Assembly (NCBI GenBank): GCA_012295275.1
Contig: CM022670.1
Location: 36,591,768 to 36,655,767, forward strand
DNA length: 64,000 nt
Direction: 5' to 3'
DNA from: Chrysomallon squamiferum
Lineage: Eukaryota > Mollusca > Gastropoda > Neomphalida > Peltospiridae
In this document: positions 13,875 through 63,931 of the stretch, piece by piece
How positions within the stretch are numbered: position 1 is the first letter of the stretch
How the letters are laid out: the number at the start of each line of letters is the position of its first letter
The notes under the pieces: model-generated
What the model was told of the DNA's origin: nothing
Databases searched by the model: none
What the model saw: only the letters and a program-made list of their open reading frames with translations
Translations under genes and position numbers: made by a program

Positions 13875-14735
13875 GTACACGAAATTAATATATCTTCTGT
13901 TTTGAACAAACAAGACGAATGTGCTAGATTAGTACGTAGTTTGCTGGCATCAACAGAAACTACTAGCAGCAAGTTAACAGAACTGCTGACTTTGGCAAAG
14001 GAGGAAAGTAAACGATCAAATGAGAATCGGAACTATCTGCCTGCACATATTTTAGGATTTGCATATCGAATTGAAAAAAAGTTCGGTATGTTTAGAATCA
14101 GTTACGAAACCAAACGTTTCCATTTCAAAAAAATAAATAAATAAAAAATAAATAAATGTGTGTTACAACTAAACAAATAATAATCAGCAGTAATGGAATC
14201 AAAAGCCATACAGTAATGATAACAACACTATAGATTATTATTACCTTTTCATTTTGATATGTTGCTACATCGTTTCTCTGTATTTGATATAATTTATATT
14301 TATTAATTTGTTTATTGGGTGTTATAAACTCTGTTGCTGTTTGTTCTATTTTGTTTGTTTGTTGTTTTTTTTTCTTTCTTGGTACTTGTCGTTGTTGTTT
14401 ATTTATAATTTTTTCTTTGTTTTAATTAATTATTCACGTGCTTTTCCAGACGACAAAGATAAAGTCATGAAGTTTGGTTTAGCTCTAGGCTTAAACAGCT
14501 GTACAGTGCAGAAAATAGTTAATGAAGAAAATGGAAAAGTTTTCTGGGAGGTGCTGTACGAATGGAACAAAACGTCAGTCCATCGCTGATTTGATTTCCG
14601 CTTGTCAAAGATTATCTATCTACGGTAAGACTTGTTTATTACCAGTGAAATACATTTGTTGCTAGTTTGTCTAATTACTTTCTTTTTTCTTGTGTTATTT
14701 AACATAAATCTGATTATTATTATTATAATTATTAC

Positions 14736-14799
<64 letters not shown>

Positions 14800-15648
14800 T
14801 TTTTTTTTTTTTTTTTGCAAAGATGGTTTAATGCCTTCTGATCACAGCACAGCTATTGAAAAGGCATACAGCAGACTTGCAAAGGACATATTTGTAGAAT
14901 ATGTAGTGATATACCTGCGTGACAAAGCTGTGTTGTCACTTTGTGATGTTGATTACATTCTCAGTCCAGAGACAAGAATAGAAAAGTTTCGACGTCTCGT
15001 CGACACCCTTCCTCTGTTTGGAGAGAAAGCTTTCGACTGCTTGGTGGAAGCTTTGACCAAATCAGGTCAAAATCATCTTGCTAACATACTGTCAGGTAAG
15101 ATTATGCATATTTTTGTTATTATTATTACTTTTTTTTTTTTTATTCTGAAAGGGAATCATGATCTGTTCCACGAGAAGAAAAAAAAAAAAAAAAAAAAAC
15201 ATGAAATTATACATAACTTTTGAGATGACAGAAGCTTCGTTACGACAAAATAACAACAACATAATATTGAGTGGCAAAATGTAAGAGGAAATTGTCATAT
15301 ATGATTTATTTAATTTATTTAATTTTATTATTATTATTTTGTTGAGTTTTTCTTCTTTCACTTCCTAAGTTAAATTTTTGTTTTTGTTTATTTTCTCTCT
15401 GTATGTGTGTTTGTGTGTGCGAAAACACTTTTTTCTTCTTTTTTTCTGTATTTTCTTAAGATGAACTGAACAAACTGACTCCTGTTTCGGACACACTAAG
15501 CAGGGAAGAATATGAGCAACAACTGGAAAGTGAAATACAAAGAACTAAGACCGATTTTGAGCTAAGTTCCTTTATTCTTATGTTATTATTCCTCTTGTCA
15601 CTATTTATTTTCTATAAAATCCGATATATTAATACTGAATTTGTTTAA
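13875..15648 (+). pseudogene. coil/death/CARD paralogue A (5' lost in gap, death exon frameshifted)
   Basis: Four exons are visible: linker 13875-14085, death-like 14450-14624, CARD 14823-15095, tail 15461-15648. The CARD exon is intact (LSLCDVDYILSPET, FGEKAFDCLVEALTKSGQNH). The tail exon ends in a hydrophobic FILMLLFLLSLFIFYKIR segment plus ten residues, a probable tail anchor with basic flank. The death-like exon keeps FGLALGLNSCTVQKIV and FWEVLYEWN. It then has a 2-base deletion relative to genes B and C, giving a stop at 14587-14589. Its normal acceptor (ttattcag in B) reads ttattcac. A ttccag 12 bases further in replaces it, in frame. A further 9-base deletion near the donor distinguishes it from D. 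Skipping this exon would keep frame, since both flanking introns are phase 1. The coil exons are missing at the gap. I call it a probable pseudogene, but a death-less product cannot be excluded. Confidence 0.65.
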
Positions 15649-18600: not shown

Positions 18601-18727
18601 GAGTTCACTGTCTTATTAATGGCTACTTGTTCTCTAAGTAGAAGGGAATTAAAAAAAATTTCATCTCAAAAGAAACTGTTTTTGAAATGTTTTCACATCA
18701 ATGTTATATTTTTTCTTGAACATTCCA
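15649..18727. other. intergenic region between convergent gene A and M6-like copy 1
   Basis: AT-rich, no coding signal. The first part is presumably 3' UTR and termination region of A. The sequence is shared with 51671-54808 downstream of D (near identical) and with 39601-42298 downstream of C (diverged, with deletions). This shows that gene plus convergent M6-like unit was amplified as one block. Confidence 0.7.
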
Positions 18728-21840: not shown

Positions 21841-22329
21841 CTTAAAATATACCATTAATATTGATTTATTTAAAAAACTGGTGATTATCTGCAATCTTTT
21901 GTTTGTAAATTAACTTGCACTAGAGCAATGGTTACTGCATAGGTTTATAAACTAGTTATTGTTTTTATGAGGCACAACATAACATTTCCAGTACAACAAA
22001 CATACACAATATTTATATATTTCAGTGTTTCTGTAATCTTAACCAGTCTAGAGCATAATACTCAGCATATGTCAGAAATTATACCTCCAAAAATAATGTT
22101 TGAGTAATTTTTTAGATTAAACTATAAGATACATACACTTTTTTTACCATATTAATATTATTATATAAATTAATGATAACATCTGTAATTACAAAAGTTA
22201 TTAGATTTGTTGCGAACTTTAATTAAGAAAAGCATAAATATGAACAACAATCATATATTACATATTGGCAGATTGTTAATAAATATTATTCATGTATATG
22301 TGTATATGTGTATGTGTGTGTGTGTGTGC
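21841..22329. other. upstream flank of M6-like copy 1
   Basis: AT-rich sequence between the first recognisable M6-like exon and the RT remnant, ending with a short GT/TG tract at 22290-22330. No gene is seen. Its counterpart at 58723-58920 is shorter by an internal deletion of roughly 290 bp. Confidence 0.6.
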
Positions 22330-23710
22330 GAATATAAATATGTGGCTTAGTAATTCCTCTTGTTCCATCAATTATCTGTCTAATAAAAGCACAGCCTGGT
22401 TGAACTACTTGACAGGCAAAATTTAGGGACCCAGTTAGTGACTGCAATGTTTTTAAAGTAGCCTTTTTTTTCATAAGATTAATCTCTATGAGCTTCCTTA
22501 ATTCAAACAATTTGTTCAGAGGCAGGTGCAATACCATATAATTTGTATCTATTTCAATACCGCGAAAAATTAGAACTGTTCTGAATCCCACAGTTCTCTC
22601 TTCTGCAGTGGGAATTCCCAAATGGCAACACTGTCTGAAAACTTCCCATTACCTTGTGACATTCATTTGAGCCTGCCCCACTCCCCAAAAAAGAAAACTG
22701 TCCAGGTAGTGTAACACAACAGCCAGTCATGGAAACATAGCCTCTCAGCTTCTCACTGAATAAAAGTGGAAAACTTTTCAAATAAAGCACAGCTGACTGA
22801 TGCACCCATGGGTGAACACTTGTAGTTGCACAGATCATCCATTTTAAACCCTAATAAATTGAAATCCCCTGGAAATACTGGTAGTAGCCCGAATGCTGAG
22901 TTTCTATCAGATTTTCCTAACAGGGATCCCTGACCTACCATCTAAATTTTTGCAACATCCATACTGACATAATGTACAGAACAAACACTTGGATCAATAT
23001 GATTATTTACTAAATCTAGGTCTGGATAGGAAAGATGGTGAATATCTCTGAAATCTCCATCATTTTTTGCTAACAATCTCAGAGGGGAAATTCACAGGAA
23101 CTTCAAATGGACGACCTGTTAATGTGCCTGGCACCCCCTCCCTAACAGAATGTCTTTACCTATTTTCACGAAAATCATGAACGCTGACGACCATGCGTGA
23201 ATAGATGTAAAGGAACCGCCCTTTTCCCTATTTTTGACCACCAATTCCCTCCACCCTCCAAAACCAGGTCGCCTACGCCACCCTGACTAGCTTCCATTTC
23301 TTTTCGCTGGACTTACTACCATCCCATAATTTTTGTCGCAATTTTTGTGGTGTATTGACCCCTATTTCCACAAACTGACAAAGGTAATGAAAGCACGATA
23401 TCTACCTATTTCAACATTGGTAATATTCAACTCACCTTTTCCCGCTTGTTCTGCCTTGCCATGCACCCAGTGCGAAGCTGATAGAACTTTAGAAGGGGTT
23501 GGCCGATCAGTTGTGTCGTTCCCTTCGTGAATAATTGTGCAATTGGCCATTACCCTTTTGTCTTGGGCCACGCTGTTGAGGCAGCTCGGTCGTTAGAAAA
23601 CGAGATGGGTCTCCTCTTTGGTCTGCCTACGTTTGTCGCAGAAAAAGAGTTTTGGGGAAGGAAAGAGATGAGATTCTCGTTACGATTATATGACAACTAG
23701 GGTTAATTGC
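22330..23710 (-). mobile_element. degenerate DIRS/Ngaro-like reverse-transcriptase remnant, copy 1
   Basis: Read on the minus strand in shifting frames, this gives FRDIH-type RT blocks (near 23050), LLGFKMDDLCNYKCSPMGAS (22790-22860), HYLDSFLF (about 22700) and GIPTAEERTVGF. At the end comes SLTGSLNFACQVVQPG (22380-22440). The last motif is typical of RT-RNase H proteins of DIRS/Ngaro-type tyrosine-recombinase retroelements. Stops and frameshifts separate the blocks, and the catalytic YxDD box reads YLDS. No LTR, split repeat or recombinase is visible. GC content is higher than in the surroundings, fitting an immigrant element. Class assignment is by motif recall and is moderate. Confidence 0.7.
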
Positions 23711-25917: not shown

Positions 25918-28900
25918 ATGAATGTAGTATCTTTTTCCGAAGAAACCAGCGTACCGATGAAACAAGACTTCCTAAACTTTATGACAAAAATCTCGCCGGA
26001 AATACTACAAGGTTTCCATAAGAACTGTAATCTTCAACTGGAAGAACTAAAAACGAAAATATCAGATCTTTCTGCCAGATTGAAAAAAGCTGAAGACGAA
26101 CTCAGAAAGAAGTATGAGTGTTTGTACGACACCGTGAAAGATATGTCCAAGCTCACCAAGAAGTCTTTGGGTGTAACAGAGAGACTGGGCACACAATTTG
26201 ATATAGACCGGGTAAAAAATGACAGATTGAAAGAAATAAAGATGCTGCAGCAAGAAAACAAAGCGCAGAATAAATGTTTGTACGACACCATGAAAGATAT
26301 GTCCAAGGTCATGAGCAAGACTTTAGATATAACAGACAGACTGGATCAGAAATTTGATATAGACATGGTAAGGAATGTCAGATTAAAAGAAATAGAGGTG
26401 TTAAAGCAAAGTATCAAAAGGCTGGAACTGAACTTAGCGACAGAAATGAAATCTTTCAATCGCCTGTTGATTGAAGTAAGGAAAAATTTAGTAGTAACTG
26501 TGAATTTATTTTCATTGTGGTGCATGTGCATTTGCAAGCACTTATACGTATCTTGTGCAAATTGGTGAACGCTATATATGTTAATGGTCACAAATTCAGC
26601 AAAATAATGGCACATATATATTTATTTAGTGATACCGTTATTATATTTCATTAAAACAGGACAGTAATAATAACAAAAACGAAACTTATCTTCAGTAATA
26701 TGTGTATGTATGTGTATGTGCTTCTCTGAGTCTGTGTTACGGATCCTGATTACTGCCTCTTTGCCATACTTGTTTTTATTCATAAATTTGTATTCTATGT
26801 AGTGAATTATAATATTCACAAAACCCATATTTTTATATGACCATTTAAAGCCGAATGTCTGCTACATTTTATCATAAGTATGTTATTATATTAAAATATA
26901 TTTAGCTATCGTGCATAATCATGTTTATAATTGCAGTTCTTAACTGTTTACCTAATTAATGTCAGAAAATGGGGGTAAATACACAAAAACTAAATAGCAG
27001 AGCGTATGCAGACGTAGAAGCTGTATTATATAATTAGGGGAAGTTCCGTTATTTTATAAACTAAGAAACATTGCGATTAACAAACTCAAAATTGGCGTTA
27101 AAGTTGCAAAGTAAATTCAGAAAGGCTGTCTGCAGAGGTGTTTACTGAGCACCCGCGCGATGGTTATATAAGCAGCGGCACGCGTTTTGTTCGAAATCTC
27201 TTTGATCGGTGCCCTGCTTGAGACACGTCTGAGAGCCGTCTGCTAAAGGCAACTGACCACTCAGGCAATGGTAATTATGGTTTAAATGTTGTTCTTCTTC
27301 GTATGTAACATACATGTTGATTGATTGAAGATAGCTAAATCTACTACTGTTGAATTTTATTGCGTTACTCTGTAGTACGTACTTACGCTTAAAAACTAAG
27401 ATAAAGTTTGTTAATAACTAAAAGATTAATTAGAAAGTTAAAGTAACCAACTGGCTTAATTAGTTTAGTATTATCTATCAACGCTCTTAGCTTTTATATT
27501 GTATTGTTCGAATCGCACGATTAAATTATATGTAACCATTGATGGTTAAAGTATGTGAAATATATATATAAAATTTTACTTATATACAATTCTTGTTTCC
27601 GTTATTTTTCTCTGGTGTATATAGAATAGTCTCAGATAATTAACACCTTGTCACGTGCCGCTATTATAGTCTGTTACCCTTAAGACGGGACGAGCCAAAT
27701 TTTAGGTATTAATCCCAATTAGACTAACCACCGTGACATGCTGTCGCAAAAAGCTCTAAAAGTAAAACAAATACAGTAGGATCTCGATTTAACAGACTGA
27801 TAGAGATGACGTTGTGACAGCTGTTGCCGAAACACTTTAGGTTATAAATGTTTTAAAAAATAATGTTTTAATGTTGTATTTCTATAAGTTTATTGTTTTT
27901 AATTTTACATATTTTATGTAGCATCTATTTTTAGTAGAAGCTCCGATGCCGCAATCGATAGTGGCGGTCAAATATAAATTGGCAACTTCTATATTAGAAA
28001 TTGTTACAAACGGAGAGAGAGAGAGGTGTCACGTGTTTACTGGTTCAGTGTTTTATAAAAATGTTATACAGTTAGGATAACACGACGAAAGCCGGTACCT
28101 GAAATACATTATGGATGACACAAATAAAAAGTTTACTTTAGACCTAATGGAATTAGTCTGCTAAAAATAACCGTTTGACCGTTAAACCAAAATTTTACTG
28201 TATAATGTCACTGCAGCAATGGAAACAGATTAGGAATAAAGCATTTATATTCTAACGAAGAAAGCTATTAACAGTTTTCCCCTTCGTTTTTGTAATAGAA
28301 AATATTAATTTCATTTGTTCATATTTAATGAAATGAAAGCATCTTCTATTCTGAACAAACAAGACGAATGTACTAGATTAGTACGTAGTTTGCTAGAATC
28401 AACAATAAATACCAGCAGCAAGTTAACAGAATTGCTGACTTTGGCAAAGGACGGAAGTAAACGATCAAATGTGAATAGCAACAATCTGCCTGCACATATT
28501 TTAGGATTTGCATTTCGAATTGAAAAAGAGTTCGGTACGTTTATAATCAGCTTCGAGTCCAAATTTTAAATTTAAAGTAATAAAAAATGTGTGTCTGTAT
28601 GTGTGCGCGCCCGTGTGTGACAACCAAACAAATAATAATAATCAACAATAATGGAATCATAAGCCATGCAGTTATTATAACGACACTATATTATTACCTT
28701 TTCATTTTGATATTTTGTTACAGCTTTTCTCTGTATTTGATACAATTTATATTTATTCATTTGTATATTTGGTTGCTGTCGACGTTGTTGCTGTTTGTTC
28801 TTTTCTTGTGGGTGCGGTGTCCTTTTTTGATTATTTATAATTTTTTGTTTGTTCAAATTAATTATTCAGGTGCTGCTGCTAACGACAAAGGTAAAGTCAA

Positions 28901-30045
28901 GCAGTTTGGTTTAGCTCTTGGCTTAAACAGCTGTACAGTGGAGAAAATAGTTAAGGAAGAAAGTGGAAAACTTTTCTGGGAGGTGCTGTACGAATGGAAC
29001 AAAACGTCACAGTCTCTCGTTGTTCTGATTTCAGCTTGTCAAAGATTATCTATCTGTCCATTCTCCGGTAAGATTGACTTATTAGCGGCTCGTTTTCATC
29101 TTTTGTGTCTAATTACTGGTTTTCACGTGTTATTTAACATAAATGTGACTATTAGCGTTTTTGTTACTGTTTGTAATATAGAATGTGGAAAGAATGTTCA
29201 CAAATTATTATCGTTTTCTTTTCTTTCCTTTTTAAACAGATTATTATTCTTTTGTAAACTATTTATTATTATTATTATTTATATATTTTACTTTTTTTTA
29301 AAGATGGTTTAATGCCTCCTCATCACACAACAGCTATAGAAAAGGCGTACAGCAGACTTGAAGCAGACATATTTGTAAGCTACGTGGTATCACACCTGCG
29401 TGACCACGCTGTGCTGTCACTTTGTGATGTTGATTACATTCTCAGTCCAGAGACAAGAACAGAAAAGTTTCGACGTCTCGTCGACATCCTTCCTCTGTCT
29501 GGAGAGAAAGCTTTCGACTGCTTGGTGGACGCTTTGATCAAAACTGGTCAACATCATCTTGCTGAAATACTTTTAGGTAAGAATAAATGTACCCTACTCT
29601 GGTATTAATAGAATATTATTTGAATAGATTTATTTTTTCTTCGATTGATCAATTGATTTTATTTATTTATTTTATTTTTAATTGCGAGCTGTTTACGTCC
29701 AGTTTGCCCTTTCGATTAATTGCACAATTTATTAATATTTTTATTTAATTTTTTACTTAATTTTTTATTGTTCTATTATAATTTTTATTATTATTATTAT
29801 TTTTGTTGTTGTTGTTGTTGTTGTATTTTTTTCCATTTTATTCAGATGAACTAAAAGAATTGACGACTCTTACGGGCACACTAAATATGGAATATAAAAC
29901 AGTTGTGGAGCGTTCATTGCAACCCGAATTAACAACTGTTAATGAATCTCTCAGTCTGAATGAGAGCGATGTGGACATTACAAGACTATTGTCCACAATA
30001 CTCACAGGGGTGAACTACAACAAGGAGTTGCTGATGAAAAAATGA
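25918..30045 (+). CDS. coil/death/CARD paralogue B (no tail anchor, linker acceptor lost)
   Basis: Exons: coil 25918-26475, linker ending 28534, death-like 28870-29067, CARD 29304-29576, C-terminal 29846-30045. The coil exon (186 codons, donor gtaagg) encodes a long heptad-rich helix. A ~53-residue unit is tandemly duplicated (CLYDTVKDMSK... then CLYDTMKDMSK...). The start aligns with gene C's ATG. The linker exon has lost the tttcag acceptor found in A, C, D and E. In its place an ATG at 28333 opens the linker frame. From that ATG a 290-residue death-like/CARD protein reads in frame through all remaining junctions (phase 1). The death domain is intact (FGLALGLNSCTVEKIV, YEWNKTSQSL), and so is the CARD (GEKAFDCLVDALIKTGQHHL). 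The last exon has no hydrophobic tail and ends LLMKK. The locus could yield two separate proteins, a coil alone and a soluble death/CARD protein, or be in decay. Confidence 0.65.
26735..27738. mobile_element. probable solo LTR in intron 1 of gene B
   Basis: About 1.0 kb present only in B, splitting intron sequence that is continuous in D and E at the (c)tctgt/ctgtc point. Ends are TGTTACGG and CCGTGACA, short inverted termini with TG...CA as in LTRs. Inside is a GC-richer stretch with a TATA-like tatataag at about 27166 followed by gagacacgtctgagagccgt. No internal coding region is present. A target-site duplication is not clear. Confidence 0.55.
27774..28200. mobile_element. pogo/Tigger-type MITE in intron of gene B
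   Basis: TA followed by CAGTAGGATCTCGATTTAAC at the left. The right end in reverse complement is CAGTAAAATTTTGGTTTAAC, followed by TA. It lies in the same position as in A, C, D and E. Confidence 0.65.
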
Positions 30046-30935: not shown

Positions 30936-30975
<40 letters not shown>

Positions 30976-36364: not shown

Positions 36365-37041
36365 ATGGCTTCACCACCTTCACTCGAAGAAATGTACAAA
36401 ACGGCGACACAAAATCTAAACGTTATGAGAACAATCTTTCCGGAATTTATCGAACCTGTCCAGCTGATGTTTGAAGAATTGCTAAAACATTCGGAAACTT
36501 CGCATTCTTTACCTGAAATACAACGAGATGTCCATGAGAACTGTAATATTCAACTGGAAGAACAAAGAAATGAAATATCATATCTTTCTGCCAGATTGAA
36601 GAAAGCTGAAGACGAACTCAGAAAAAAGGATGAATGTTTGCACGACACATTGAAAGAGATATCCGAGGACACGAAGAAGTCTTTGGGTGTAACAGACAGA
36701 CTGGCCATAAAATTTGATTTAGACAGGATAAAGGATGACAGATTGAAAGAAACAGATGCGTTGAAGCAGCAAATCAAAGCGCTGGAAAACTCCTTGGAGA
36801 AAGAAATGAAATTTCGTAGTAACCTGCTGATGAAAGTAAGTAAAAATATAATAATTATTATTATACAGTAACAACAATGAATTTGTTTTCATTTGGTGCC
36901 TGTGCATTTGCACGCACTTTTACTTATCTTGTGCAAATCGCTCAATACTGTGTATGATAATGTCACAATTTCAGCGAAATAATTGCATCCATATATGTTT
37001 TCAGTGGTAGTGTTGTTACAGTTCATTAAAACAGGACAGTA

Positions 37042-37094
<53 letters not shown>

Positions 37095-39600
37095 GTTAAA
37101 AAAATATAAAAATATATTTAGACTATTATCTTCAATAATATGTATATGTGTCTGTTTGTGCTTCTCTGTTTCTGTCTCAAAAAAGCTCAAAAAGTAAACA
37201 CAAATACAGTAGGATCTCGATTTAACGGACTGTTGCCGAAACACATTCTCATAAATAATATTTTAATGCTGTATTTCTATAAATTTATTGTTTTTTAATT
37301 TTACAATGACATATTTTATGTACTCACCATTTTTAATATAATATATAAAAAAAATTGTTTGTAGAAGGTCCTATGCCTCAGTCGATAGTAGTGGTCAAAT
37401 ATAAACTGGCAATTTCTATATTCCAAACTGTAACAAACGGATGGACAGGTGTCACGTTTTTACTGGTTGAATATTTTATAAAAATGTTATACACTTAGGA
37501 CCACTAAACAATTACACAACCATGGACGACACAAATAAAAAGTTTACTTTAGATTTCATGGAATTAGTCTGCTAAAAATGAAGTCCGTTGACTTGTTGAC
37601 CGTTAAACCAAGAATTTACTGTTGAATGTCACTGCAGCAATAGAAACAGATTAGGAATAAAGCACTTATATTTTAACGAAGAAAGCTATTAACAGTTTTC
37701 CTCTTCGTTTATGTAATGGAAAATATTAATTTCATTTATTCATATTTAATTTCAGATAAACAAAATTAACACAACTTCTGTTTTAGAAAAACAAGATGAA
37801 TGTACTGAATTAGTACGTAGTTTAATAGAATCAACAGAAGAAAACAAAAGCAAGTTAACAGATGTGCTGAATTTGGCAGAGGAATGTTTACTGTCAAATA
37901 AGAATAGCGACAGTCTGCCTCCACACATTTTAGGATGTGCAAATCAAATTGAAAAAGACCTCGGTATGTTTATAATCAGCTTCGAGTCCATATTTTAAAT
38001 TTAATTTAAAAAAGTGTGTATGTGTGTGTGTGCGAGCACGTATGTGACAACCAAAGAAATAATAATAATCAACATTAATGGAATCACAAGCCATGCAGTA
38101 ACAATAACAACATTAGATTATTATTACCTTCTCATTTTGATATTTTGCTACAGCGTTTCTTTGTATTTCATATAATTTATATTTATTTATTTGTTTATTT
38201 GGTTGTTGTCGACTTTTTCCCTGTTCTTTTTTTTAAGTGGGTTGACCTTTTCTGATTATTTATAATTTTTTGTTTGTTTTAATTAATTATTCAGGTGCTT
38301 CTGCTAACAACAAAGATAAAGTCAAGGAGTTTGGTTTAGCTCTAGGCGTAAACAGCAGTACAGTGGAGAAAATAGTTGAAAAAAGTGGAAACCCTTTCTG
38401 GGACGTGATACACGAATGGAACAAAACGTCACAGTCTCTCAGTATTCTGATTTCCGCTTGTCAAAAATCATCTATCAGTTCATTTTTCAGTAAGACTGGC
38501 TTATTATCAGTGAAATATATTGTTTGTTTGTGACTAATTGCTGTTTTTCATGTGTTATTTAAAATAAATCGGACCATTTCAGATATATTTTTTTCGTTTC
38601 AATAAAATTGTAATACTGTTTAGAATATGGCAAGAATCGCAGACTGTTCACAAATTATTATCATTTTCCTTTCTGAAACAGAAAATTATTATTTTCTTAA
38701 CTATTTATTTTTTTTATTATTATTATTTTACCTTTTTTTTTTTTTTTTTTTCAAAGATTCTTCGATGCCTCCTCAACACAGCAAAGCTATAGAAAAGGCA
38801 TACAGCAGACTGGTAACAAATATATTGTTTGAACCTGTAGTAACATACCTGCGTGACAACGGTGTGTTGTCACCTTGTGATGTTGATTACATTCTCAGAC
38901 CAGAGACAAGAACAGAAAAGGTTCGACGTCTCATCGAAATCCTTCCTCTGTTTGGAGAGAAAGCTTTCGACTGCTTTGTGGAAGCTTTGACCAAATCAGG
39001 TCAAAATCATCTTGCTGACATACTGAAAGGTAAGATTATAGATATTCTCTTATTATTATTACTTTTTTCTTAATATTCTGATAGATAATCAAGATCTGGT
39101 CCACGATCACTATAAAACGGAATTATACATAACTTTTAAAATGACACAAGCTTCGTTATGACAAAATAACAATAATAAATTATAGACTGGCAAAAATGTA
39201 AAAGGAAATTGTCATAAACGATATATTTAATTAGTTTTATTTTTTTATTATTATTATTTTATTTTTTTATTTATTTTTAATGTATTTAGTTACCTGTTAT
39301 ATTTTGTTTCTACTTTCACTAAATTCATTGTGTGTGTGTGTGTGTGAGCGCACACTTTTTTCTATTTTTTCTGAATTTTGTTCAGATGAACTTAAAAAAC
39401 TGACTCCTGTTTCGGACACACTAAACAGCGAAGGATTGGAGCAAACACTGCAAAGTGAAAGAACAACAGATGATGAATTCCACAGCTTGAATGAAAGATG
39501 TGATGCCTATTTTGTTATCGGCATCCTAATAGCCTTTGTTATTATATTATATACTTATCCTCTACAAAATCTGAATTTTTTTAAAGGTTATTGGCAATAA
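36365..39600 (+). CDS. coiled coil - death-like - CARD - tail-anchor protein, paralogue C (intact)
   Basis: Exons 36365-36835, 37756-37963, 38295-38489, 38757-39029, 39386-39600 give 1362 bases, 453 residues, with GT-AG at every junction. Residues ~50-157 are a charged heptad-rich coiled coil (LEEQRNEISYLSARLKKAED). Residues 158-226 are a helical linker ending ILGCANQIEKD. Residues 227-291 look like a short death domain (FGLALGVNSSTVEKIV, FWDVIHEWNKTSQSL). Residues ~298-382 match a CARD (VVTYLRDNGVLSPCDVDYIL, GEKAFDCFVEALTKSGQNHL). A stalk follows, then a single hydrophobic segment at ~423-442 (YFVIGILIAFVIILY) and a short tail, so the protein is probably tail-anchored with all domains cytosolic. 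Intron 1 is phase 0, the rest phase 1. CARD and death domains nucleate signalling oligomers; a CARD beside a tail anchor recalls MAVS, a death/CARD pair recalls CRADD but in reverse order. A role in innate immunity or cell death is inference. It is the only complete member in the window. Confidence 0.85.
37029..37092. repeat. (ATA)n microsatellite in intron 1 of gene C
   Basis: Perfect run of ataata trinucleotides, about 20 units. Confidence 0.95.
37207..37621. mobile_element. pogo/Tigger-type MITE in intron of gene C
   Basis: Left CAGTAGGATCTCGATTTAAC after TA. Right end reverse complement CAGTAAATTCTTGGTTTAAC, the best match of the five to the left end. About 415 bp, non-coding. Confidence 0.7.
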
Positions 39601-46389: not shown

Positions 46390-46424
<35 letters not shown>

Positions 46425-46686: not shown

Positions 46687-46699
46687 ACATTTTAGTACT

Positions 46700-47715: not shown

Positions 47716-50700
47716 ATGCCTCGAAGATCATTTCGCAAAAAGAAAAGTAAAAAAGACAATTGTGAAGACGACCAAAGCATTAGTGAATCATCTCACAAAA
47801 CAAAAAATAAACTTGAAAATTACCATGAGGCAGTCCAGCTAGTTCCCACTTTGCAGAGTGAAAACAGAAAACTGAGATTGGAATTAGAATACCTAAAACA
47901 TGCAGCCAGTCCCAGTCAAACAAACCTACCAACAATTGTTTCCGGACCGACGCAGGAAACACGGCGTTCTTTCACTCAAAGCCAAGTCACAACAGAAATA
48001 CAACGAGACGTCCATGAGAACTGCAATCTTCGTTTGCAAGAACAACAAGCGACAATAAGAGATCTGTCTGCCAGACTGAAAGAAACTGAAGACAAACTCA
48101 GAAAGAAGGATGCTGCAGATCAGATTCTGTACGACGCCGGGCACAGTTTGGTTTCAACTATGGAAAACAGATTCGAGAACATGTTATTTGATACATTAGA
48201 GAGACTCGGGAAAAAAATTGATGAGAGTCTGAAAGAAAAACTAGATTATGCAATGAAGATATTGACACAACAACTCAAAGCGGCAGAAGAGTCCCATGAA
48301 AGGAAACAGTACAGTGATCTATTGATGGAAGTAAGTAAAAGTGTAATGATTTTGTTTTATTATTATTGTTTTTTTTGTTATTGTCATGCGCGTGTCTGGT
48401 GCATTTGTAAGTATCTGCATCAAAATAACTTAAAGAGTACATTTGATGGTACGAATAAATGGTCTAAAAATACTTTATGCTTGAAAGTTATTATTTTTGA
48501 CGACCTGTTGTAGCTCGAAACAAAAACTGACAACAAAATAATACTGTGCCAATTATTAGAATAGCGTCAAATCGAAAATTTACTGTATAATTTTTACTAC
48601 AGAAACAAAGAGAAAAATTATTAATAAGTCATATATTTTCTACTGACAAAGGTTGCTGACAAATTTTGTTTTCGTTTATATAATGGAAACTATTCATTTC
48701 ATTTAGATGTTTTGCACCGTGGATGAGTTCAAGAAGAGGTATTTAGATGTTCTCGAGAAAGTAGAAGTACATTTTGCTAGAGACAGGATAGGGAATGACA
48801 GAATGAAAGAAATAGAAATGATGAAGCAACAATGCAAAACACTGGAACAAGTCTTAGCAAGAGAAGTGAAATCTCACAGTCACCTTTGGATGAGAGTAAG
48901 TAAAAATATAATAATTGTCAATTTTTTGACTACTTTTATTTTCTACCAACAAATCAAATACAACGTTAATAGCAGTACTTATTTAGTTAGTTATTATTAT
49001 CGCTTTTAATTTTAATAGCTGCAACAGTAACATTATTTATTTGTTTGTTCGTTTAGTTAGTCAGTTACTTTTATTGTAGTGCCGGTGCATTTGCATGCAC
49101 TTATGTTTATCTTGTTAAGATCGGTCAACACTATGTATGATAACGTCATGAATCTTGTATTCTCGGTTTTGTTATTAATAATAAATATTCAGAAACGGAA
49201 ACCGTAATCAATAGTATGTAAATCGTTGGAGAATGAAATGAAATAATTTAGTTATCTGCTGAAGTACAAATATTATATTTTTTATCTGTTAATATGTTTT
49301 TCCTCGGTAATATGTATATGCGTATGTATGTGCTTCTCTGATTCTGTCTCAATAAGCTCATAAAGTAACACAAATACAGTAGCATCTCGATTTAACAGAC
49401 TCACAGATTTGAAGTGTTGTCCACTGTTGCCGAAACACTTTAAGTCATAAACGTTTAAAAAGGATAATATTTTAATGTTATAGTTCTATAAGTTTATTCT
49501 TTTCAATTTTATATGCTCACTATTTTTAATGTAAAATTTAATACTTTATTTTTCTTTTTGTTTTTTTTGTAAAAGGTCCTTTGCCATAATCAATAGTGAT
49601 GTTTTATAGAAATGATATACAGTTAGGATCACTAAACAATTACACGATGAAAGCCTGTACGTGAAATAAATTAGGGACGACACAAAGAAAAAGTTTACTT
49701 TAGAACTAATGGAATTAGTATATGCTAAAAATGAAGTCAGTTGACTTGTTGACTTTTAAACCAATAATTTACTGTATGATGTTACTACAGCAGTAAATAA
49801 AGAGAAAAATCTGGAATCAAATATCAGTAATAAAGCATTTATTTTCAATCGAAGAAAGCTAGTGGGAGGTTTCCTTTATACAACGGAAAATATTAATTTC
49901 ATTTGTTCAAATTTAATTTCAGGTACACGAAATTAATATATCTTCTGTTTTGAACAAACAAGACGAATGTGCTAGATTAGTACGTAGTTTGCTGGCATCA
50001 ACAGAAACTACTAGCAGCAAGTTAACAGAACTGCTGACTTTGGCAAAGGAGGAAAGTAAACGATCAAATGAGAATCGGAACTATCTGCCTGCACATATTT
50101 TAGGATTTGCATATCGAATTGAAAAAAAGTTCGGTATGTTTAGAATCAGTTACGAAACCAAACGTTTCCATTTCAAAAAAATAAATAAATAAAAAATAAA
50201 TAAATGTGTGTTACAACTAAACAAATAATAATCAGCAGTAATGGAATCAAAAGCCATACAGTAATGATAACAACACTATAGATTATTATTACCTTTTCAT
50301 TTTGATATGTTGCTACATCGTTTCTCTGTATTTGATATAATTTATATTTATTAATTTGTTTATTGGGTGCTATAAACTCTGTTGCTGTTTGTTCTATTTT
50401 TTTTTTTTTTCTTTCTTGGTACTTGTCGTTGTTGTTTATTTATAATTTTTTCTTTGTTTTAATTAATTATTCACGTGCTTTTCCAGACGACAAAGATAAA
50501 GTCATGAAGTTTGGTTTAGCTCTAGGCTTAAACAGCTGTACAGTGCAGAAAATAGTTAATGAAGAAAATGGAAAAGTTTTCTGGGAGGTGCTATACGAAT
50601 GGAACAAAACGTCAGTCCATCGCTGATTTGATTTCCGCTTGTCAAAGATTATCTATCTGTCCATTCTATGGTAAGACTTGTTTATTATTTGTTGCTAGTT

Positions 50701-50768
50701 TGTCTAATTACTTTCTTTTTTCTTGTGTTATTTAACATAAATCTGATTATTATTATTATAATTATTAC

Positions 50769-50822
<54 letters not shown>

Positions 50823-51670
50823 CTTTTTTTTTTCTTTTTTTGCAAAGATGGTTTAATGCCTCCTGATCACAGCACAGCTATTGAAAAGGCATACAGCAGA
50901 CTTGCAAAGGACATATTTGTAGAATATGTAGTGATATACCTGCGTGACAAAGCTGTGTTGTCACTTTGTGATGTTGATTACATTCTCAGTCCAGAGACAA
51001 GAATAGAAAAGTTTCGACGTCTCGTCGACACCCTTCCTCTGTTTGGAGAGAAAGCTTTCGACTGCTTGGTGGAAGCTTTGACCAAATCAGGTCAAAATCA
51101 TCTTGCTAACATACTGTCAGGTAAGATTATGCATATTTTTGTTATTATTATTACTTTTTTCTTTTTATTCTGAAAGGGAATCATGATCTGGTCCACGAGA
51201 AGAAAAAAAAAAAAAAAAAAAAAATGAAATTATACATAACTTTTGAGATGACAGAAGCTTCGTTACGACAAAATAACAACAACATAATATTGAGTGGCAA
51301 AAATGTAAGAGGAAATTGTCATATATGATTTATTTAATTTATTTAATTTTATTATTATTATTTTGTTGAGTTTTTCTTCTTTCACTTACTAAGTTAAATT
51401 TTTATTTTTGTTTATTTTTTCTCTGTATGTGTGTTTGTGTGCGAAAACACTTTTTTCTTCTTTTTTTCTGTATTTTCTTAAGATGAACTAAACAAACTGA
51501 CTCCTGTTTCGGACACACTAAGCAGGGAAGAATATGAGCAACAACTGGAAAGTGAAATACAAAGAACTAAGACCGATTTTGACCTAAGTTCCTTTATTCT
51601 TATGTTATTATTCCTCTTGTCACTATTTATTTTCTATAAAATCCGATATATTAATACTGAATTTGTTTAA
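47716..51670 (+). CDS. coil/death/CARD tail-anchored paralogue D (death exon frameshifted)
   Basis: Exons: 47716-48330, 48707-48895, 49923-50133, death-like 50487-50670, CARD 50848-51120, tail 51483-51670. The first exon starts with a strongly basic stretch (MPRRSFRKKKSKKD) unlike B or C, then coiled coil. A second coil exon of 63 codons, phase 0, resembles the last part of B's coil and occurs only here. The death-like exon is 184 bases rather than 198: the acceptor has slid 12 bases in frame, and a 2-base deletion gives a stop at 50624-50626. Because that exon is flanked by phase-1 introns, skipping it restores a 491-residue frame: coil, linker, CARD, tail anchor (FILMLLFLLSLFIFYKIR). If it is included, the product ends after a partial death domain. 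The CARD is intact. The 3' part is nearly identical to gene A. I keep it as coding because every other exon and splice site is intact, but it may be a pseudogene. Confidence 0.6.
49377..49774. mobile_element. pogo/Tigger-type MITE in intron of gene D
   Basis: Same terminal sequences and TA flanks as 13328-13726, from which it differs by very few bases. Confidence 0.65.
50769..50835. repeat. (ATT)n microsatellite before the CARD exon
   Basis: Pure ATT run followed by poly-T up to the CARD-exon acceptor. The counterpart in gene A is 14735-14815, with a different number of units. It may serve as the pyrimidine-rich tract. Confidence 0.9.
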
Positions 51671-54600
51671 AGGTTAATGGGCAGTGATCAATTATTCATG
51701 TTTAACAGTTTTCAAATTATGGCTGACTACTAAAAAAAAGATGTTTTTATAGTGTTTTACTAATATGGAATTTTTTATAGATTTGTTTTATTATTATTTA
51801 TAAAGTATCTTGTATCGTTAAAGTTTTTGTCTAAAACAATGCTCCTTAATGAGATAATTGAAACTAGATACGTAATATTAAAATGATTAAAAATGAGTCA
51901 TCGGTGAATTACATTTTGTGACAAAGATTCAAAATCAGTGAAGAGAGGTTGAACTTAAAGAGAAAATTTGACTTATGATGGCTTACAAAGATGAATTTTA
52001 TAATAAATGTATTTTAACTTGTTGTATAGGTGTTTCAGTTAATCAGAATGCAATGTATTTTTTATAATTATTATTTTTTTCTGAAATGAGAATAAAGAAT
52101 CAAAAACATGAAATGCCATATAAAAAAGTTTATTTCTGAAAACAGTGTATTATGTAAAAGATGCATTTAAAAATGTTAATACAACTATATAATAACATCT
52201 GAATATTATAAAAGATACAAAGACTAGCCAAATTTTATTACTGTCTTTCTATAAAAAACAAATTAAGTTATTCATAGACCCTACGTTATCAAGTGTGCAT
52301 GTGAAAAAAGAACAACTTTGACATAAAACCAGAGTCAGGTCATTTGATATAGAATGTTATTTTTCTTGTATGTATTTGTAACAATGCCAGTCTAATTACT
52401 TCAAACACACTGGATCCTGCAAACTGAATCAGCAATTAAGTCACGGTTCATGCATCAAAAAACAAAAATCATAGATTTCATTCTTGAAATAAGAGATTTT
52501 GTAAACATAACAAATCAAGCATTTCTGTTTTTGAAATCAGAAGTCAGCTATGAAAATTCAGCAAACCTTTGCAATTATGCAGGTTGTGGCAAAAAGAGTG
52601 ACAAGCTTAAGACTTAAGAAATATGAATGTTTACATAACTCATTATCTCCAAAATGTGAAATGAAAATAGCAGACTGAAGAAATTTGGCCACTTTTTTCG
52701 ATGATTACCAATATTTAACATATCTCTGCAATCAAACAAGCTTTGGAAAATGGAGTGGTGTCAAAATGAAGCTGATGAAATCAGATTTCTTTATAATATT
52801 TATATAACTCAATATTCCAAAAATGTAAATTCATCTTTCATTCATTGTGCAGTTACAAATATTTTTAAAACAAACTGCTAAAATAACAGATTTGAAAATG
52901 TAAATATTAGGCAACTATTAAACTAAAATTAAAAGGTTTATTTTTAATGAAATCTACAAATAGTAAATAATCGTGACATAAAAGATATTTTCGAAAATTT
53001 AAATATGTAAATATTTTAATCATTTCTTCCTTAGAAACTTTACGTTCTAACATTAAAACATTTAATACCAAATACATAAACCTAAATTTATAACAACTTG
53101 CAATTTAACCAAACTTTTGGAATATATTAAGAGAAATAATTATTAATATTCACTAATATTCTAATATAAAAACATGATTAGGTTTATCTTTTCAGTGTAT
53201 ATATCATAAAATTAAATAAAATATATTTAAAAAAATAAATGGCATTCAAAATTGTAATAAATTTCACTGTTGAATAATCATGTCAAGCATCCTAAATCCA
53301 AATAAATAAATAAAAAGTACTATTAATTTAAGAATTTTGCAATATCATATAGAAAGTATTAACTATTATATTATTCTGAAAATCTAATATTTCTTTTAAA
53401 AATAATACATTTTATCATTTAATAATAGTTTTAATTTGTTTTCCCATGATGAAATACAAGAATACAAATGTACATATAAAATGTTTTTAAATAAATAAAT
53501 AAAAAGAATACGAAATTATTTCTTTTATTTTAAAAGAATACTTGGCCAAACATCAGGAGAACTGTGGAATATTAATAGTACCAATTGATGTTAAATCTAT
53601 AGTGTTGTTTAAAATTAATATTATTTAGTAATACATACATATGATATCTGGCCTGAATATTCTTTTAGTAACTGATCAACTATTCTGTCTTCTCAAGCAG
53701 TACATTATAATATGTGAAAAATATATGATCAATAAAATCACTTCCACCAAAATATGAACATAATAAAGCAAGAAAGTATCAAAGTTGTATAAATTATTAA
53801 AATATAGTAAATTATGATAAATATAAATAAATGTTTAACAATCATTTTAATCACTATACATTATTGGTGTTTTGTTCTGTCACAACCATTTATGTTTTGT
53901 AAATGTGTATATATGTATTCATAAATAGCAAATACATTAAAATAAATAAATATATACTAAAAAATATGAACAAACAGTGCAATGTTTGGAATGTATTTGA
54001 TAAAATATTTTGAAATATTAAGTTTCTATGTTAATTTTTAAAAAGTTTTTTCTAATTTTTTTTTTTACAGTTTAAATCATCTATTAAAAAGATATGAGGC
54101 AAAGATAAAAATTAAATAATAATAAAAATAAGTGACCTGATAATTCAGTAATATTACAAAGTTGAAATAATGTTTCTTTCTCTTATTTCTTTTACGTACA
54201 AAAGAATAAAGAATGAAGGTTTAGAGGCATTTTATCATCAAAATGTGTAGGCATTAGGAGTCACTTTTTGTGCGATTCCATTGGTTGGAAGCAGTCAAAC
54301 ATGTTTCCAGTCACTTTTTGTAAAAGAACTTAAAAAAATAAATACAAAAAACCCCAGCTAAACTATATGCCACTGTTCAATTAAAAAATGAAAGTAAAGA
54401 AGCACTGCTGAAAATTTTATAAATCAAAAGAGATGTATAAATATGTTTTTTATTCATGTGTCTCCATTTAACGCCTGCTTTTAATAATAATGGTACTAGT
54501 AATCACTACAAAATTATAAATTTTACTTTTCATAATTCATCTAAGAAATATAAAATCAACAGGGAGTGATGAATAAAGTTTGATTCTCATAATTAAAATT

Positions 54601-54808
54601 ACTAAAACTCTGTAACAAAACGTTCTGCCAGTTGTAACTACCTAACCCTTGGATGTGTGAGTAGATGATCACAGGATAATTTGAGTTCACTGTCTTATTA
54701 ATGGCTACTTGTTCTCTAAGTAGAAGGGAATTAAAAAAAGTTTCATCTCAAAAGAAACTGTTTTCAAAATATTTTCACATAAATTTTGTATTTTTCTTGA
54801 ACATTCCA
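51671..54808. other. intergenic region between gene D and M6-like copy 2
   Basis: Near-identical to 15649-18727, with an extra taaataaataaataaaaaga stretch at about 53490. No coding signal. Confidence 0.7.
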
Positions 54809-57800
54809 TCAACGGCCTAAATAAGGTGGAGGTCCCTTCTGACTTCTGTCGTGAATGCTGTTCAGTTCCAGTTCTTCCATTTCAACAGCATCTCGGTACT
54901 CAGTCAACTCCTTTGAAATCTTAATGCGTGTGTAGTCTGCTGCAAGACAAGTCATGAAGAGGGTCTAGAAAAAAATATATATTAATTTATATACAGAAAT
55001 GCAACTATGAAAAACCAGTTATGGTTATCAGCTGAACAGGACCCAACAAATTTGTTTTCTTCTTTTTATTTAAATACCATGACATAAAATGCTGGGCCAC
55101 AAATCAGACTATAGTTACTTAAGTTAATTTAATAAGATAAATTAAACTGACAACATTAGATGAAACATTTCTGAATAATTTATTCATCACTAAAAATATG
55201 GCTTATCTTCAAACTATAGACAGAAAACTGACTTTTGAAGGTTTGTTTATTATTTTCATCTAGAGATTTTGATATGCCTTATTACTAAAATTTTAAAATT
55301 TACCTCTTACATATATCATGTTATATAGTTTACTTTATTTCATTGTACTTTCTTATACCTGTCTAAAAGGTTAATACTTACAACACATGAAACAACACTG
55401 TTGTTTTAGAAAATACTTATTTAAAAAAAATATAATTATAAATATTTTTATAATCTCACCATTCCAAGAACAATGAATATAGCTCCTATGGAAGCAACAC
55501 AAAACAAGGGACCAGCCTCAATCACCTCAAAAATTAATTAATTACTAAAACTCTGTAACAAAACGTTCTGCCACTTGTAACTACCTAACCCTTGGATGTG
55601 TGAGTAGAGGATCACAGGATATTTTGAGTTCACTGTCTTATTAATGGCTACTTGTTCTCTAAGTAGAAGGGAATTAAGAAACTTTTCATATCAAAAGAAA
55701 CTTTTAGAAACATCTTCACATCAATGTTATATACGGTGGAGGTCCCATCTGACGTCTGTCGTGAATGCTGTTCAGTTCTAGTTCTTCCATTTCAACATCA
55801 TCTCGGTATTCAATCAACTCCTTTGAAATCTTAATGCGTGTATAGTTTGCTGTCAGAGAAAAAAAATTATATATTTAAATTCATTTATATACAGAAAGGC
55901 AACCATGGAAAAACCAGTTATGGTTATCAGTGAACAGGACCATGAAAAAAAAAATGCTAGGCCACATGCGAGACTATAGTTACTTAACTTAATTTGATAA
56001 GATAAATTAAACTCACAATATAAGATGAAACATTTCTGAATAATTTATTCATCACTAAAAATATGGCTTATCTTCAAAGTAATATACAGAAAACTGACTT
56101 TTGAAGGTTTTATTTGTTTGTTATTTTCATCTAGAGATTTGTATATTAACTTTATTTCAAGAAGAAGCCTTTTGAGAATTTTGAAAAGTTTACCTCTTAC
56201 ATGTATAATATTATATAATTTACTTTATTTCAGTGTACTTTCTTACACCCATCTAAAAAAATTAATACTTACATAACACACATGAAACAAAACTATTGTT
56301 TTTAAAAAATACTTATTTTTTAAAATGTAAAATTAAATATTTTTAGACTCTCACCATTCCGAGAACAATGAATAAAGATCCTATGGAAGCAACACAAAAC
56401 AAAGGACCAGCCTCAATCACCTAAAAATAAAAATAAATAAAAATAATTTATAAAAGTTTGCTAGGAAATTAATTTCATAAAATAACAACATTGCCTATAA
56501 AAACTTTTAGTTAGCTCCCTTGAAAGGTTTGGATATTCTCATTATGAACAGAATGTAATTATTAAACTTAAAACTGATATTATATAATTTTAAAATAATA
56601 ACAATGACAGAAATATGTAACAATCTATACTGTTTAGTTATATATGCTGAAATATTAGTCAATTCAGATCAATATTTATAAATTTCATAGTAGTACATAA
56701 TTTTATACAGGTTAATTCATTTTTAAATTATCTATATATATTTTAAATAATTAAGAATGAAAATGATTTTTACAAATAATTACAGCAATCACATGAGAAC
56801 GTAACAATCTGTGTTGTTTGTTTACATTAATATTTAGTGCAGTAAATATGTTTACACATGTTAATTAACTTACTGTATCACACATTTGTTTAACTTCACC
56901 TTCACTTTAACTTTTCCAGGTGTTGAAAAACTGACTGGATAAACAGAACCCCAATACACACCTAAATGTGAAAAAGAAAAAAAATCATTAAAAAAACAAT
57001 GTATGCAAGTGGCCTTAAAAATGACTACTGTTAGTAAATTTAATTGAAATTATCTTTATAAATTTATAAACTGTACAAATTCATGTTCATCAGAAATAGG
57101 TTTCATGAAACAGTATGTTATAAAGTAGCATGTTTCTTCATCTTCTCTAATTTGTAAAACTTGAGAATAAATATAATTTTGTTCTGATTAGTTTTATTGT
57201 TTTTTTGTTTTTGTTTTTTTAAAGTAATATTAAAGTAGGTTTTATAGTATTTTTGGAACTTTACTTTCACTGCATTTTGAAGGAAACAAAATACATGTTT
57301 TTATATGTAAACATAAAGAAAACAATTTTATCATTTATTTACAAAACAATTCAGTGTGTTTCAAAAATATATTTGACACAAAAAATAAATTGTAAATTAT
57401 ATGAATACAAGACAAACAGAGACAACTGTAAAATGTCTTACCAAACTGAGTCAGGTTGAAGCAGTAAGTAAGTGTTTTGTGTTTCTGTTATCAGAATCCA
57501 GCCAAGATTGTGAATGTACGTGATAACAGTGAACTGAAAAAATAAACAGAGATAATTATTAGTATTTCACATTTACATTTATTTTTAGTGGAATTCCTCC
57601 CCCAAAACAATCTTTACCAAACTTCCACAAACCAAATATAATAAAATTTAATTTGCATAATTAAAAAATTGAAAAGTAAAGTTAACTATTTAGGGAACAT
57701 AGTACAAGAAATATAAAAATGTTCAGAATTAGTAATATATGTAAACTTTTAACAATAAAAGAATAAATTTTATAATTCTTATTCTATCATAAAATAACAC

Positions 57801-58722: not shown

Positions 58723-58881
58723 CTTAAAATATACCATTAATATTGATTTATTTAAATTAATGATAACATCTGTAATTACAAAAGTTATTAGATTTGTCAC
58801 GAACTTTAAGAAAAGCATAAATATGAACAATAATCATATATTACATATTGGCAGATTGTTGATAAATATTATTCATGTATA

Positions 58882-58916
<35 letters not shown>

Positions 58917-58929
58917 CTCTGAATATAAA

Positions 58930-59990
58930 TATGTGGCTTAGTAATTCTGCTTGTTCCATCAATCATTTGTCTAATGGTTGAACTACTTGACAGGCAAAAT
59001 TCAGGGACCCAGTTAGTGATTGCAATGTTTTTAAAGTAGCCTTTCTTTTCATGAGATTAATCTCTATGAGCTTCCTTAATTCAAACAATACCATATAATT
59101 TGTATCTATTTCAATACCGCGAAAAATTAGAACTGTGCTGAATCCCACAGTTCTCTCTTCTGCAGTGGGAATTCCCAAATGGCAACACTGTCTGAAAACT
59201 TCCTATTACCTTGTGACATTCATTTGACCCTGCCCTGCTCCCCCAAAAAGAAAACTGTCTCACTGAATAAAAGTGGAGAACTTTTCAAATAAAGTACAAC
59301 TGACTGATGCACCCATGGGTGAACACTTGTAGTTGCACAGATCATCCATTTTAAACCCTAATAAACTGAAATCCCCTGGAAATACTGAGTTTGTATCAGA
59401 TTTTCCTAACAGGGCCATCTGGCTTACCATCTGAATGCTTTGCACTGCATCATCCATACTGACATAATGTACAGAACAAACATTTGGATCAATATGATTA
59501 TTTACCAAATCAAGGTCTGGATATGAAAGATGGTGAATATCTCTGAAATCTCCATCATTTTTTGGTAACAATCCCATATTTTTTGCCGCAATTTTTGTGG
59601 TGTATTGACCCCTATTTTGTCAAACGTCACGAAAGGACGATATTTACCAAATCAATTTCAACATTGCTAATATTCAACTCACTTTTTCCCGCTTGTTCTG
59701 CCTTGCCGGGCACCCAGTGCGAAGCTGATAGTGATAGAACTTTAGAAGGGATTGGCCGATCAGTCGTGTCGTTCCCTTCGTGAATAATTGTGGAATCGGC
59801 CATTGCCCTTTTGTCTTGGGCCACGCTGTTGGTGCAGCTCAGTCGTTAGAAAACGAGTTGGGCCTCCTTTTTGGTCTGCCTACGTCTGTCGCAGAAAAAG
59901 AGTTTTGGGGAAGAAAAGAGAAAGGGATTCTCGTTACGATTGCAAGACAACTACGGTTAATTGCCGTTCGCTATTACCTCCCCTGCACCA
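58930..59990 (-). mobile_element. degenerate DIRS/Ngaro-like reverse-transcriptase remnant, copy 2
   Basis: Second copy of 22330-23710 with the same RT blocks (FRDIHHLSYPDLD, LLGFKMDDLCNYKCSPMGAS, SLTGSLNFACQVV). It has lost ~245 bp upstream of the first RT block and ~70 bp around the YLDS box, so the catalytic region is gone. It preserves a longer open RT stretch at 59260-59577. Confidence 0.7.
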
Positions 59991-61750: not shown

Positions 61751-61951
61751 ATTACCCAGCACTTTTGGTGATGACATGACAGATTATATCAAATATATGT
61801 GTTAATAGATACTGGTTACTGCGACATGTTATAGGTGAGATGCAATTTGCAGAAAAGAAAAAGTTGAGATTTCTCCTAGGTGAGTATTGTTTTATTTATT
61901 TTAATTACACAGGCGATTTACTTTTTGTTAAGTTTCAATTAAGTTATTATA

Positions 61952-62005
<54 letters not shown>

Positions 62006-62038
62006 GTTGTTGTTATTGTTGTTATTATTATCATTATT

Positions 62039-62075
<37 letters not shown>

Positions 62076-62221
62076 TCATTATAATTCATCTTCATCATCA
62101 TTATTAATATGAATAATATTTGACTTCTTACTTTTACAGTTGGAACAGCTTGATAAACTTATTATAAACAAATTTTCAGTTTCTTTGACTGATAAATACC
62201 ATTTCTACTAAAAACAGTGCT
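61751..62221 (+). promoter_or_regulatory. conserved leader block of gene E
   Basis: Leader block with donor-like tag/gtgaga at 61834/61835 and acceptor tttacag at 62139 before ttggaacagcttgataaact. Between them lies a long (ATT)n tract at 61950-62070. From about 61840 onward it follows gene C (atgcaatttgcagaaaa) rather than gene B. Confidence 0.4.
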
Positions 62222-63931
62222 TTACCGTCTTTACCCGAAGAAATGGATGAAACAGTGGAACAAACCCTTCTGAGAGTCGCCTCGCCGATCAATCTTTGTT
62301 TGAAGAAAAGCAGAAACAGTCGGAAACTTCGAATTCTTCGCCTGAAATACAACGAGATGACCATGAGAACTCTAATCTTCAACTGGAAGAACAAAAAAAG
62401 GAAATATCATATCTTTCGGCCAGATTGAAGATAGCTGAAGACGAACTCAGAAAGAAGGATGCGTTTTTGTATGACTCCGTGAAAGATATATCCGAGATCA
62501 CGAACAAGTCTTTAGAAATAACAGAGACACTGGATCAGAAATTTGATATAGACCGGGTGAAGAACGACAGATTGAAAGAAATAAAGATGTTACAGCAAGA
62601 AAACAAAGAGCAGAATAATGTTTTGTACGACACCTTGAAAGATATGTCCGAGGTCATGAGCAAGACTTTAGATATAACAGAGAGACTGGGCACAAAATTT
62701 GATATAGACCGGGTAAAGGATCGTAGAATGTAAGAAATAAAGAAGTTGAGGCAAAGTCCTTAGAGACAGAAGTGAAATCTCACAATCGCTTGTTGATGAG
62801 AGTAAGTAAACATTTAGTAGTAACTTTATTTGCACGCAGTTAGACCTATCTTGTGCAAACTGGTCACTACTATGTATGATAATGTGACGAATTCAACAAA
62901 ATAATGGTACCCAGATATTTTTTGTTTTGAGTGGTACAGTCGTTACACTTCATTGAATCTGGAAAGTAAAAATAATAAATAAATAAATAAATAAATAATA
63001 ACAAAAACGAAACTTGCAAATATAAAAATATGCTTAGGCTATTATCTTCAATAATACGTATATGTGTGTGTGTGTGTATGTTCTTCTCTGTGGCTGTCGC
63101 GAAAGCTCAAAAAGTAACACAAATACAGTAGGATCTCGATTTAACGGACTGACAGAGATGAAATGTTGTCCACTCTTGCCGAAACACTTTAAGTCATAAA
63201 CGTTTTTAGAAAATAATGTTATAATGTTTTAATGTTGTATTTCTATAAGTTTATTGTTTTTAATTTTACAGAATGATATATTTTATGTAACATCTATTTT
63301 TAATATAAAATATAACATTTTGTTTGTTTGTAGAAGCTCCGATGCCGCAGTCGATAGTGGCGGTCAAATATAAATTGGCAACTTCTGTATTACAAATTGT
63401 AACAAATGGAGAGAGAGAGAGTTATTTGTTTACTGGTTCAATATTTTAAAAAAAAACACAATGAAAGCCTGTACGTGAAATACATTATGGATAACAGAAA
63501 TAAAAAGTTTACTTTCGGTCTAATGGAAATAGTCTACTAAAAATTAAGTCAGTTGACATGTTGACGTTAAACAAAGAATTTACTACAGCAGTAAATAAAG
63601 AGAAAAATCTGGAATCAAAGATGAGTAATAAATAATTTATTTTCTAACGAAGAAAGCTATTAAAAGTTTCCGTCTACGTGTATATTATGGAAAATATTAA
63701 TTTCATTTGTTCATATTTAATTTCAGCTAAACAAAATTAATACATCTGCTTTGAAAAGTCAAGCAGAATATAAAGAAGCAATACGTAGTTTGATGGAATC
63801 AACTAAAAAAACCACCAGCAAGTTAACAGATCTGCTGACTTTGGCAGAGGAAAGCAAACGATCAAATGTGAATGGCAGCCATCTGCCTGCACACATTTTA
63901 GGATTTGCATTTCGAATTGAAAAAGAGTTTG
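62222..63931 (+). pseudogene. coil/death/CARD paralogue E (coil exon broken; runs off window)
   Basis: The coil exon (to donor at 62801/62802) matches B and C. The start codon aligned to C's ATG is changed (cagtgcttt). An in-frame ATG at 62243 enters a frame shifted from the coil by about 62290. The coil frame (62296-62733) holds the duplicated ~53-residue unit as in B but ends in TAA before the donor. The last ~24 bases of exon homology are deleted. The linker exon (63727-63931) is intact, with a good tttcag acceptor and gtatgt donor, ending ILGFAFRIEKEF in phase 1. Death, CARD and tail exons should lie beyond 64000. It is either a pseudogene or a gene that starts downstream, like the B alternative. 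Confidence 0.6.
63126..63584. mobile_element. pogo/Tigger-type MITE in intron of gene E
   Basis: TA then CAGTAGGATCTCGATTTAAC at the left. The right end is decayed (gttaaacaaagaatttacta). It lies in the same intronic position as in the other paralogues. Confidence 0.6.

Follow-up and report, generated by a model that had tools for sequence, protein, structure and literature searches.

In the 64-kb stretch of Chrysomallon squamiferum DNA analysed here (contig CM022670.1, positions 36,591,768 to 36,655,767; hereafter the window), five loci, genes A to E, lie on the plus strand with homologous exons in one common order. We read this array as one family of duplicated CARD adaptors, membrane-bound or soluble depending on the copy and with a role in innate immunity or cell death, and we give that reading a probability of about one half. 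The window is animal DNA with intron-bearing genes and a GC content of 28.7% (base counts), and the gene models were predicted from its sequence in this analysis. The likeness among the loci exceeds chance, as seen in the identity between A and D (below) and in the 58 of 90 columns that are invariant across the CARD exons of A, B, C and D.

Five loci with one exon order

An earlier note on this DNA had described five homologous plus-strand loci with the same exon order and phases. With an independent protein from Gigantopelta aegis (LOC121375424, P0001) as the query, tblastn matched the exon-2 segment at all five loci and the death-like and CARD exons at the four loci that have that part in the window, which supports the order exon 2, death-like exon, CARD exon wherever those lie in the window. 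Common phases were found in gene C, where phase 1 is used at the junctions between the end of exon 2, the death-like exon and the CARD exon; the latter two both have lengths divisible by three, and the five exons, with canonical GT donors and AG acceptors, encode a predicted product of 453 amino acids. The copies are not all whole: the first exon of A is not visible, falling inside the 200-N gap or past it, the window cuts E off after exon 2, the death-like exon of A and D is frameshifted, and B has no transmembrane segment and no in-frame acceptor in the part scanned. The features are as follows (+, plus strand; tblastn, matched by the G. aegis protein).

12722-12921, no strand: 200-N gap that truncates gene A at its 5' end
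13875-14085, +: gene A exon 2 (tblastn)
14450-14624, +: gene A death-like exon, with a stop as in D
14823-15095, +: gene A CARD exon, open, with a single base difference from that of D
15461-15648, +: gene A transmembrane tail exon (tblastn)
25918-26475, +: gene B coil exon; heptad periodicity reached in 4 of 1000 shuffles
28333-28534, +: gene B exon 2 (tblastn); the ATG at 28333 is in frame
28870-29067, +: gene B death-like exon, open (tblastn)
29304-29576, +: gene B CARD exon (Pfam CARD, 3.5e-11)
29846-30045, +: gene B tail exon without a transmembrane segment, its end like the G. aegis tail
36365-36835, +: gene C exon 1, start and coil segment
37756-37963, +: gene C exon 2, encoding a linker and the predicted first helix of the death-like segment (tblastn)
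38295-38489, +: gene C exon 3, encoding the death-like segment (homologue of residues 297-355 of G. aegis P0001); no Pfam Death match
38757-39029, +: gene C exon 4, CARD
39386-39600, +: gene C exon 5, C-terminal transmembrane tail (hydropathy) and stop
47716-48330, +: gene D exon 1, encoding a basic N terminus and a coil; homologous to the G. aegis P0001 N terminus (E = 1.4e-14)
48707-48895, +: gene D, additional coil exon akin to those of B, C and E
49923-50133, +: gene D exon 2, linker (tblastn)
50487-50670, +: gene D death-like exon, frameshifted to a stop (tblastn)
50848-51120, +: gene D CARD exon, open (Pfam CARD, 3e-9, in the hypothetical form without the death-like exon)
51483-51670, +: gene D transmembrane tail exon (hydropathy 2.40)
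62206-62799, +: gene E, region of the first exon, without the start codon and with a stop in the coil frame at 62731-62733
63727-63931, +: gene E exon 2 (tblastn)

The first exon of D is longer than that of C. The death-like exons of A and D share a slight change in length, after which the frame runs into a stop following WNKTSVHR; the rest of the exon in D is recognised by tblastn in another frame (50607-50666). Because exon 2 and the CARD exon of D are both in phase 1 at the death-like exon, its skipping would leave an open protein of 491 amino acids, a possible but hypothetical form. For B, no acceptor joining exon 2 in frame to the coil exon was found in the 400 nucleotides upstream, which were scanned (the inside of exon 2 was not); its inner ATG opens a hypothetical form of 290 amino acids. 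The first exon of E has gtg where C has ATG, and the gene runs out of the window at 63931, leaving its death-like, CARD and tail exons beyond it.

The CARD and the one relative found

The CARD that had been proposed for these genes is strongly supported. Pfam CARD (PF00619) scores 47.1 bits in the gene C protein, 37.2 in D and 43.4 in B, against a curated cut-off of 23.9, and the domain shows the six-helix death fold. In C the domain occupies residues 301-383 of 453; that of A differs from D by one residue. The array CARD agrees most closely with the general CARD model and with Apaf-1; its best PDB sequence match is CRADD/RAIDD (E = 0.002). The CARD_2 profile, which we take to be the RIG-I/MAVS-type CARD, stays under its cut-off of 28.2 bits in C (19.8), D (15.3) and B (22.2).

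Region-limited searches of 5.77 billion proteins, which detect only proteins having exact 5-residue words in common with the query, found a sole relative, 1 of 1187 candidates: the uncharacterised 542-residue product of LOC121375424 (E = 2.3e-44) from G. aegis, a peltospirid gastropod of deep-sea vents. Used as the query, it matched only itself among 1901 candidates, and its locus name is absent from the literature searched. It has in common with the array a basic N terminus and coil like D, a death-like segment, a CARD and a tail that begins with the DEL.KLT motif, and is 52% identical to gene C over residues 205-388. It differs in its open death-like exon and in a tail that, like that of B, has no evident transmembrane segment. 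B shares 64 of 90 CARD residues with it, and the other copies 56-60. The earlier description of a lineage-specific, expanding family agrees with this single relative, within the reach of those searches, and with the recent duplication of A and D.

Coil and tail

Hydrophobic heptad periodicity lies above most shuffles in gene C (residues 50-157; reached by 21 of 1000) and in gene B (4 of 1000). At the other end of the protein, C and D have a single hydrophobic segment near the C terminus, as in a tail anchor, and B does not: the best 19-residue hydropathy windows score 2.27 in C (424-442 of 453), 2.40 in D and 0.53 in B, and the best hydropathy windows fall at 421-442 of 453 in C and 462-483 of 491 in D. 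The tail of A is nearly the same as that of D (tblastn), and a C-terminal membrane segment is present in three of the four copies with a visible tail. The proposed membrane anchor is supported for A, C and D and not for B; the tail of E is outside the window. The B and G. aegis proteins end in a similar stretch that lacks the hydrophobic segment. Because B is also closest to G. aegis in the CARD, the tail without a transmembrane segment may have come first and the anchor may be a later gain, an order that rests on one outside sequence.

A guarded frame or decaying copies

In four non-coding comparisons we counted 27 indel events per 340 substitutions. About 4.5 indels would be expected over the 57 substitutions in the CARD exon, and none was seen (chance 0.011), so the reading frame is probably guarded while residues change fast. 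A kept frame with fast residue change fits diversifying selection or weak constraint, and the counts do not separate the two.

Several observations weigh against the array being a family of working CARD adaptors. Only at one of the five loci, C, are the coil, death-like, CARD and transmembrane parts all open, and C alone is complete. The heptad periodicity of gene D is not above that of shuffles (171 of 1000 reach it). Pairwise ratios of non-synonymous to synonymous substitution rates (dN/dS) range from 0.70 to 1.71 in pairs with usable dS, a range that leaves out A-D and the death-exon pairs C-A and C-D, where a dS close to zero leaves the ratio at 7.58 and undefined. Introns are not regularly more diverged than exons: divergence K in the CARD exon, intron 2 and intron 3 is 0.186, 0.144 and 0.278 for B-C, and 0.141, 0.252 and 0.257 for A-C. 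Under neutrality, three CARD branches would stay free of stops with a chance of about 0.15. The dN/dS range, the intron and exon divergence and this chance are compatible with a loss of constraint. We infer the adaptor function itself from domain type, its sole basis.

The death-like segment adds to this side of the balance. Pfam Death (PF00531) has no match in the C, D and B sequences. It does match the G. aegis protein (E = 0.054 at full length, 0.0072 for the segment alone), where it is the segment's sole Pfam match, at 16.9 bits against a curated cut-off of 22.6. A structure model of the death-like exon, lacking helix 1, which is in another exon, has four helices at low confidence (pLDDT, predicted local distance difference test, 65.2); the Foldseek matches to that model are not significant, with the TNFR1 death domain at rank 2 of 22 (E = 5.3) and p75NTR at rank 13 (E = 8.3). 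Comparison with a three-sequence death profile was no better than shuffles after the G. aegis row was added. The segment has an LGL turn, then V..I, then a conserved W, which we take to be hallmarks of death domains. The death domain named in the earlier note is thus suggested by its homologue's segment and not by Pfam in the window copies; we lean towards a true death domain, which is not confirmed.

The array might instead consist mostly of decaying duplicates, in which a single gene still works, either C or one beyond the window, and the rest are pseudogenes that resemble each other through recent duplication. Four of the five loci have a defect (a gap, loss of the start, a frameshift, a missing acceptor or a missing end), and dN/dS lies near 1, both as decay would have it. 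We nevertheless consider this account rather unlikely, given that every CARD exon in view (A, B, C and D) is open and without indels, that the frameshifted exon of D could be skipped in frame, and that B keeps an open form from its inner ATG, the last two forms being hypothetical.

Comparison with known adaptors

The order coil, death, CARD, anchor was said to match no known system. We found the exact order only in the G. aegis relative, but oyster CgMAVS, as described in the available text, already joins a CARD, a Death domain (death-like here) and a C-terminal transmembrane segment in one molluscan signalling protein (PMC5557890). A MAVS-like antiviral adaptor would have RLR CARDs nucleate the tail-anchored CARD on mitochondria, and its death-like segment would recruit downstream partners, as proposed for oyster MAVS. 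The array proteins, with a CARD, a transmembrane segment (C and D) and a possible Death domain, have these three modules, and the available text on the gastropod Aplysia reports that no MAVS or STING was identified and suggests that a very divergent MAVS may be hidden (PMC9334734). However, both the position and the type of the CARD speak against the MAVS name: the domain lies far from the N terminus in C, and it is not of the CARD_2 type in C, D or B. Compared by description only, CgMAVS has an N-terminal CARD followed by Death, with no N-terminal coil described (PMC5557890). We regard a MAVS-like adaptor as improbable.

Other CARD proteins differ as well. CRADD/RAIDD resembles the array in pairing a CARD with a death domain; its CARD comes first, and it is not known to have a coil or a membrane anchor. 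That architecture does not fit genes in which the death-like segment precedes the CARD, nor gene C with its transmembrane segment. Unlike Apaf-1 and CED-4, C and D have no NB-ARC or WD40 among their Pfam matches. BinCARD/CARD19 is distinguished by its N-terminal CARD and has no known death domain.

Growth of the array

A and D can be aligned from 12922 and 48968 onward, and in steps of up to 500 bases 91.3-99.8% of the aligned columns agree as far as 25.5 kb, with large indels; past 25.5 kb the identity is 81-84%, upstream of and within exon 1 of B and E. The CARD exons of B, C and D differ from one another by about 12-17%, so the array grew in at least two stages. The A copy of the A/D repeat starts right at the 200-N gap, a break in the assembly that the repeat itself probably caused. 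That A and D are one locus assembled twice is very improbable: A does begin at the gap edge and match D from 48968 onward, but no second N run separates them, and identities of 91-99.8% with large indels are unlike one copy of the same allele.

Downstream of A, the segment 18415-18869 occurs twice downstream of D (54497-54950 and 55440-55860), a further local duplication; the references of these two D-side copies have about 64% ungapped identity.

Neighbouring sequence

Two copies of an HtrL_YibB-family gene lie at 3203-4012 and 9096-9723 (+). The first has a Pfam match of 1.2e-46; the second is split into two open reading frames (ORFs) and is 94-99% identical to the first over matching pieces. 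Long inverted repeats (4380-6308 and 9841-12180; 81-91% identity) surround both copies. Minus-strand ORFs at 22286-22850 and 59260-59619 have no Pfam match up to E 0.1 and look like retrotransposon pieces, and the minus-strand segment 45644-45919 has a weak MULE transposase match (E = 0.087), under the cut-off.

A candidate signalling platform

If the array is a family of duplicated CARD adaptors, its genes would all belong to a single family, carried by a mollusc akin to the peltospirid vent snails. The coil and death-like segment would hold several molecules together, and the Apaf-1-like CARD would bind a partner CARD, most likely that of an initiator caspase or an NLR/Apaf-like sensor. The tail anchor of C and of the A and D forms would place this platform on a membrane; the B-like copies and the Gigantopelta relative would be soluble. 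As the genes duplicate, change their tails, lose the frame of the death-like exon and diverge quickly in protein sequence, they would give rise to decoys or to variants with other locations, a pattern to be expected where shifting selection acts on a family for innate immunity or cell death; several copies would be decaying. We consider it improbable, as a bolder form of this proposal, that peltospirid-type gastropods evolved their own membrane-tethered platform of Apaf-1-like CARD and death-like domain that does the work of MAVS or an inflammasome adaptor and diversifies by tandem duplication, swapping of anchored and soluble tails and loss of the death-like exon.

The available texts of the G. 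aegis and scaly-foot genome papers report expanded immune families (PMC7736800, PMC7142155, PMC7895826); the word CARD is absent from the text of PMC7736800, and CARD, caspase and death from that of PMC7895826. Gastropod antiviral and death signalling has a gap, to judge from the available account of Aplysia (PMC9334734), and a CARD adaptor family that is anchored in some copies only would be a concrete, testable candidate to fill it. Its relative occurs in a snail described as housing intracellular endosymbiotic bacteria (PMC7895826), in which the control of cell death against tolerated bacteria is of interest.
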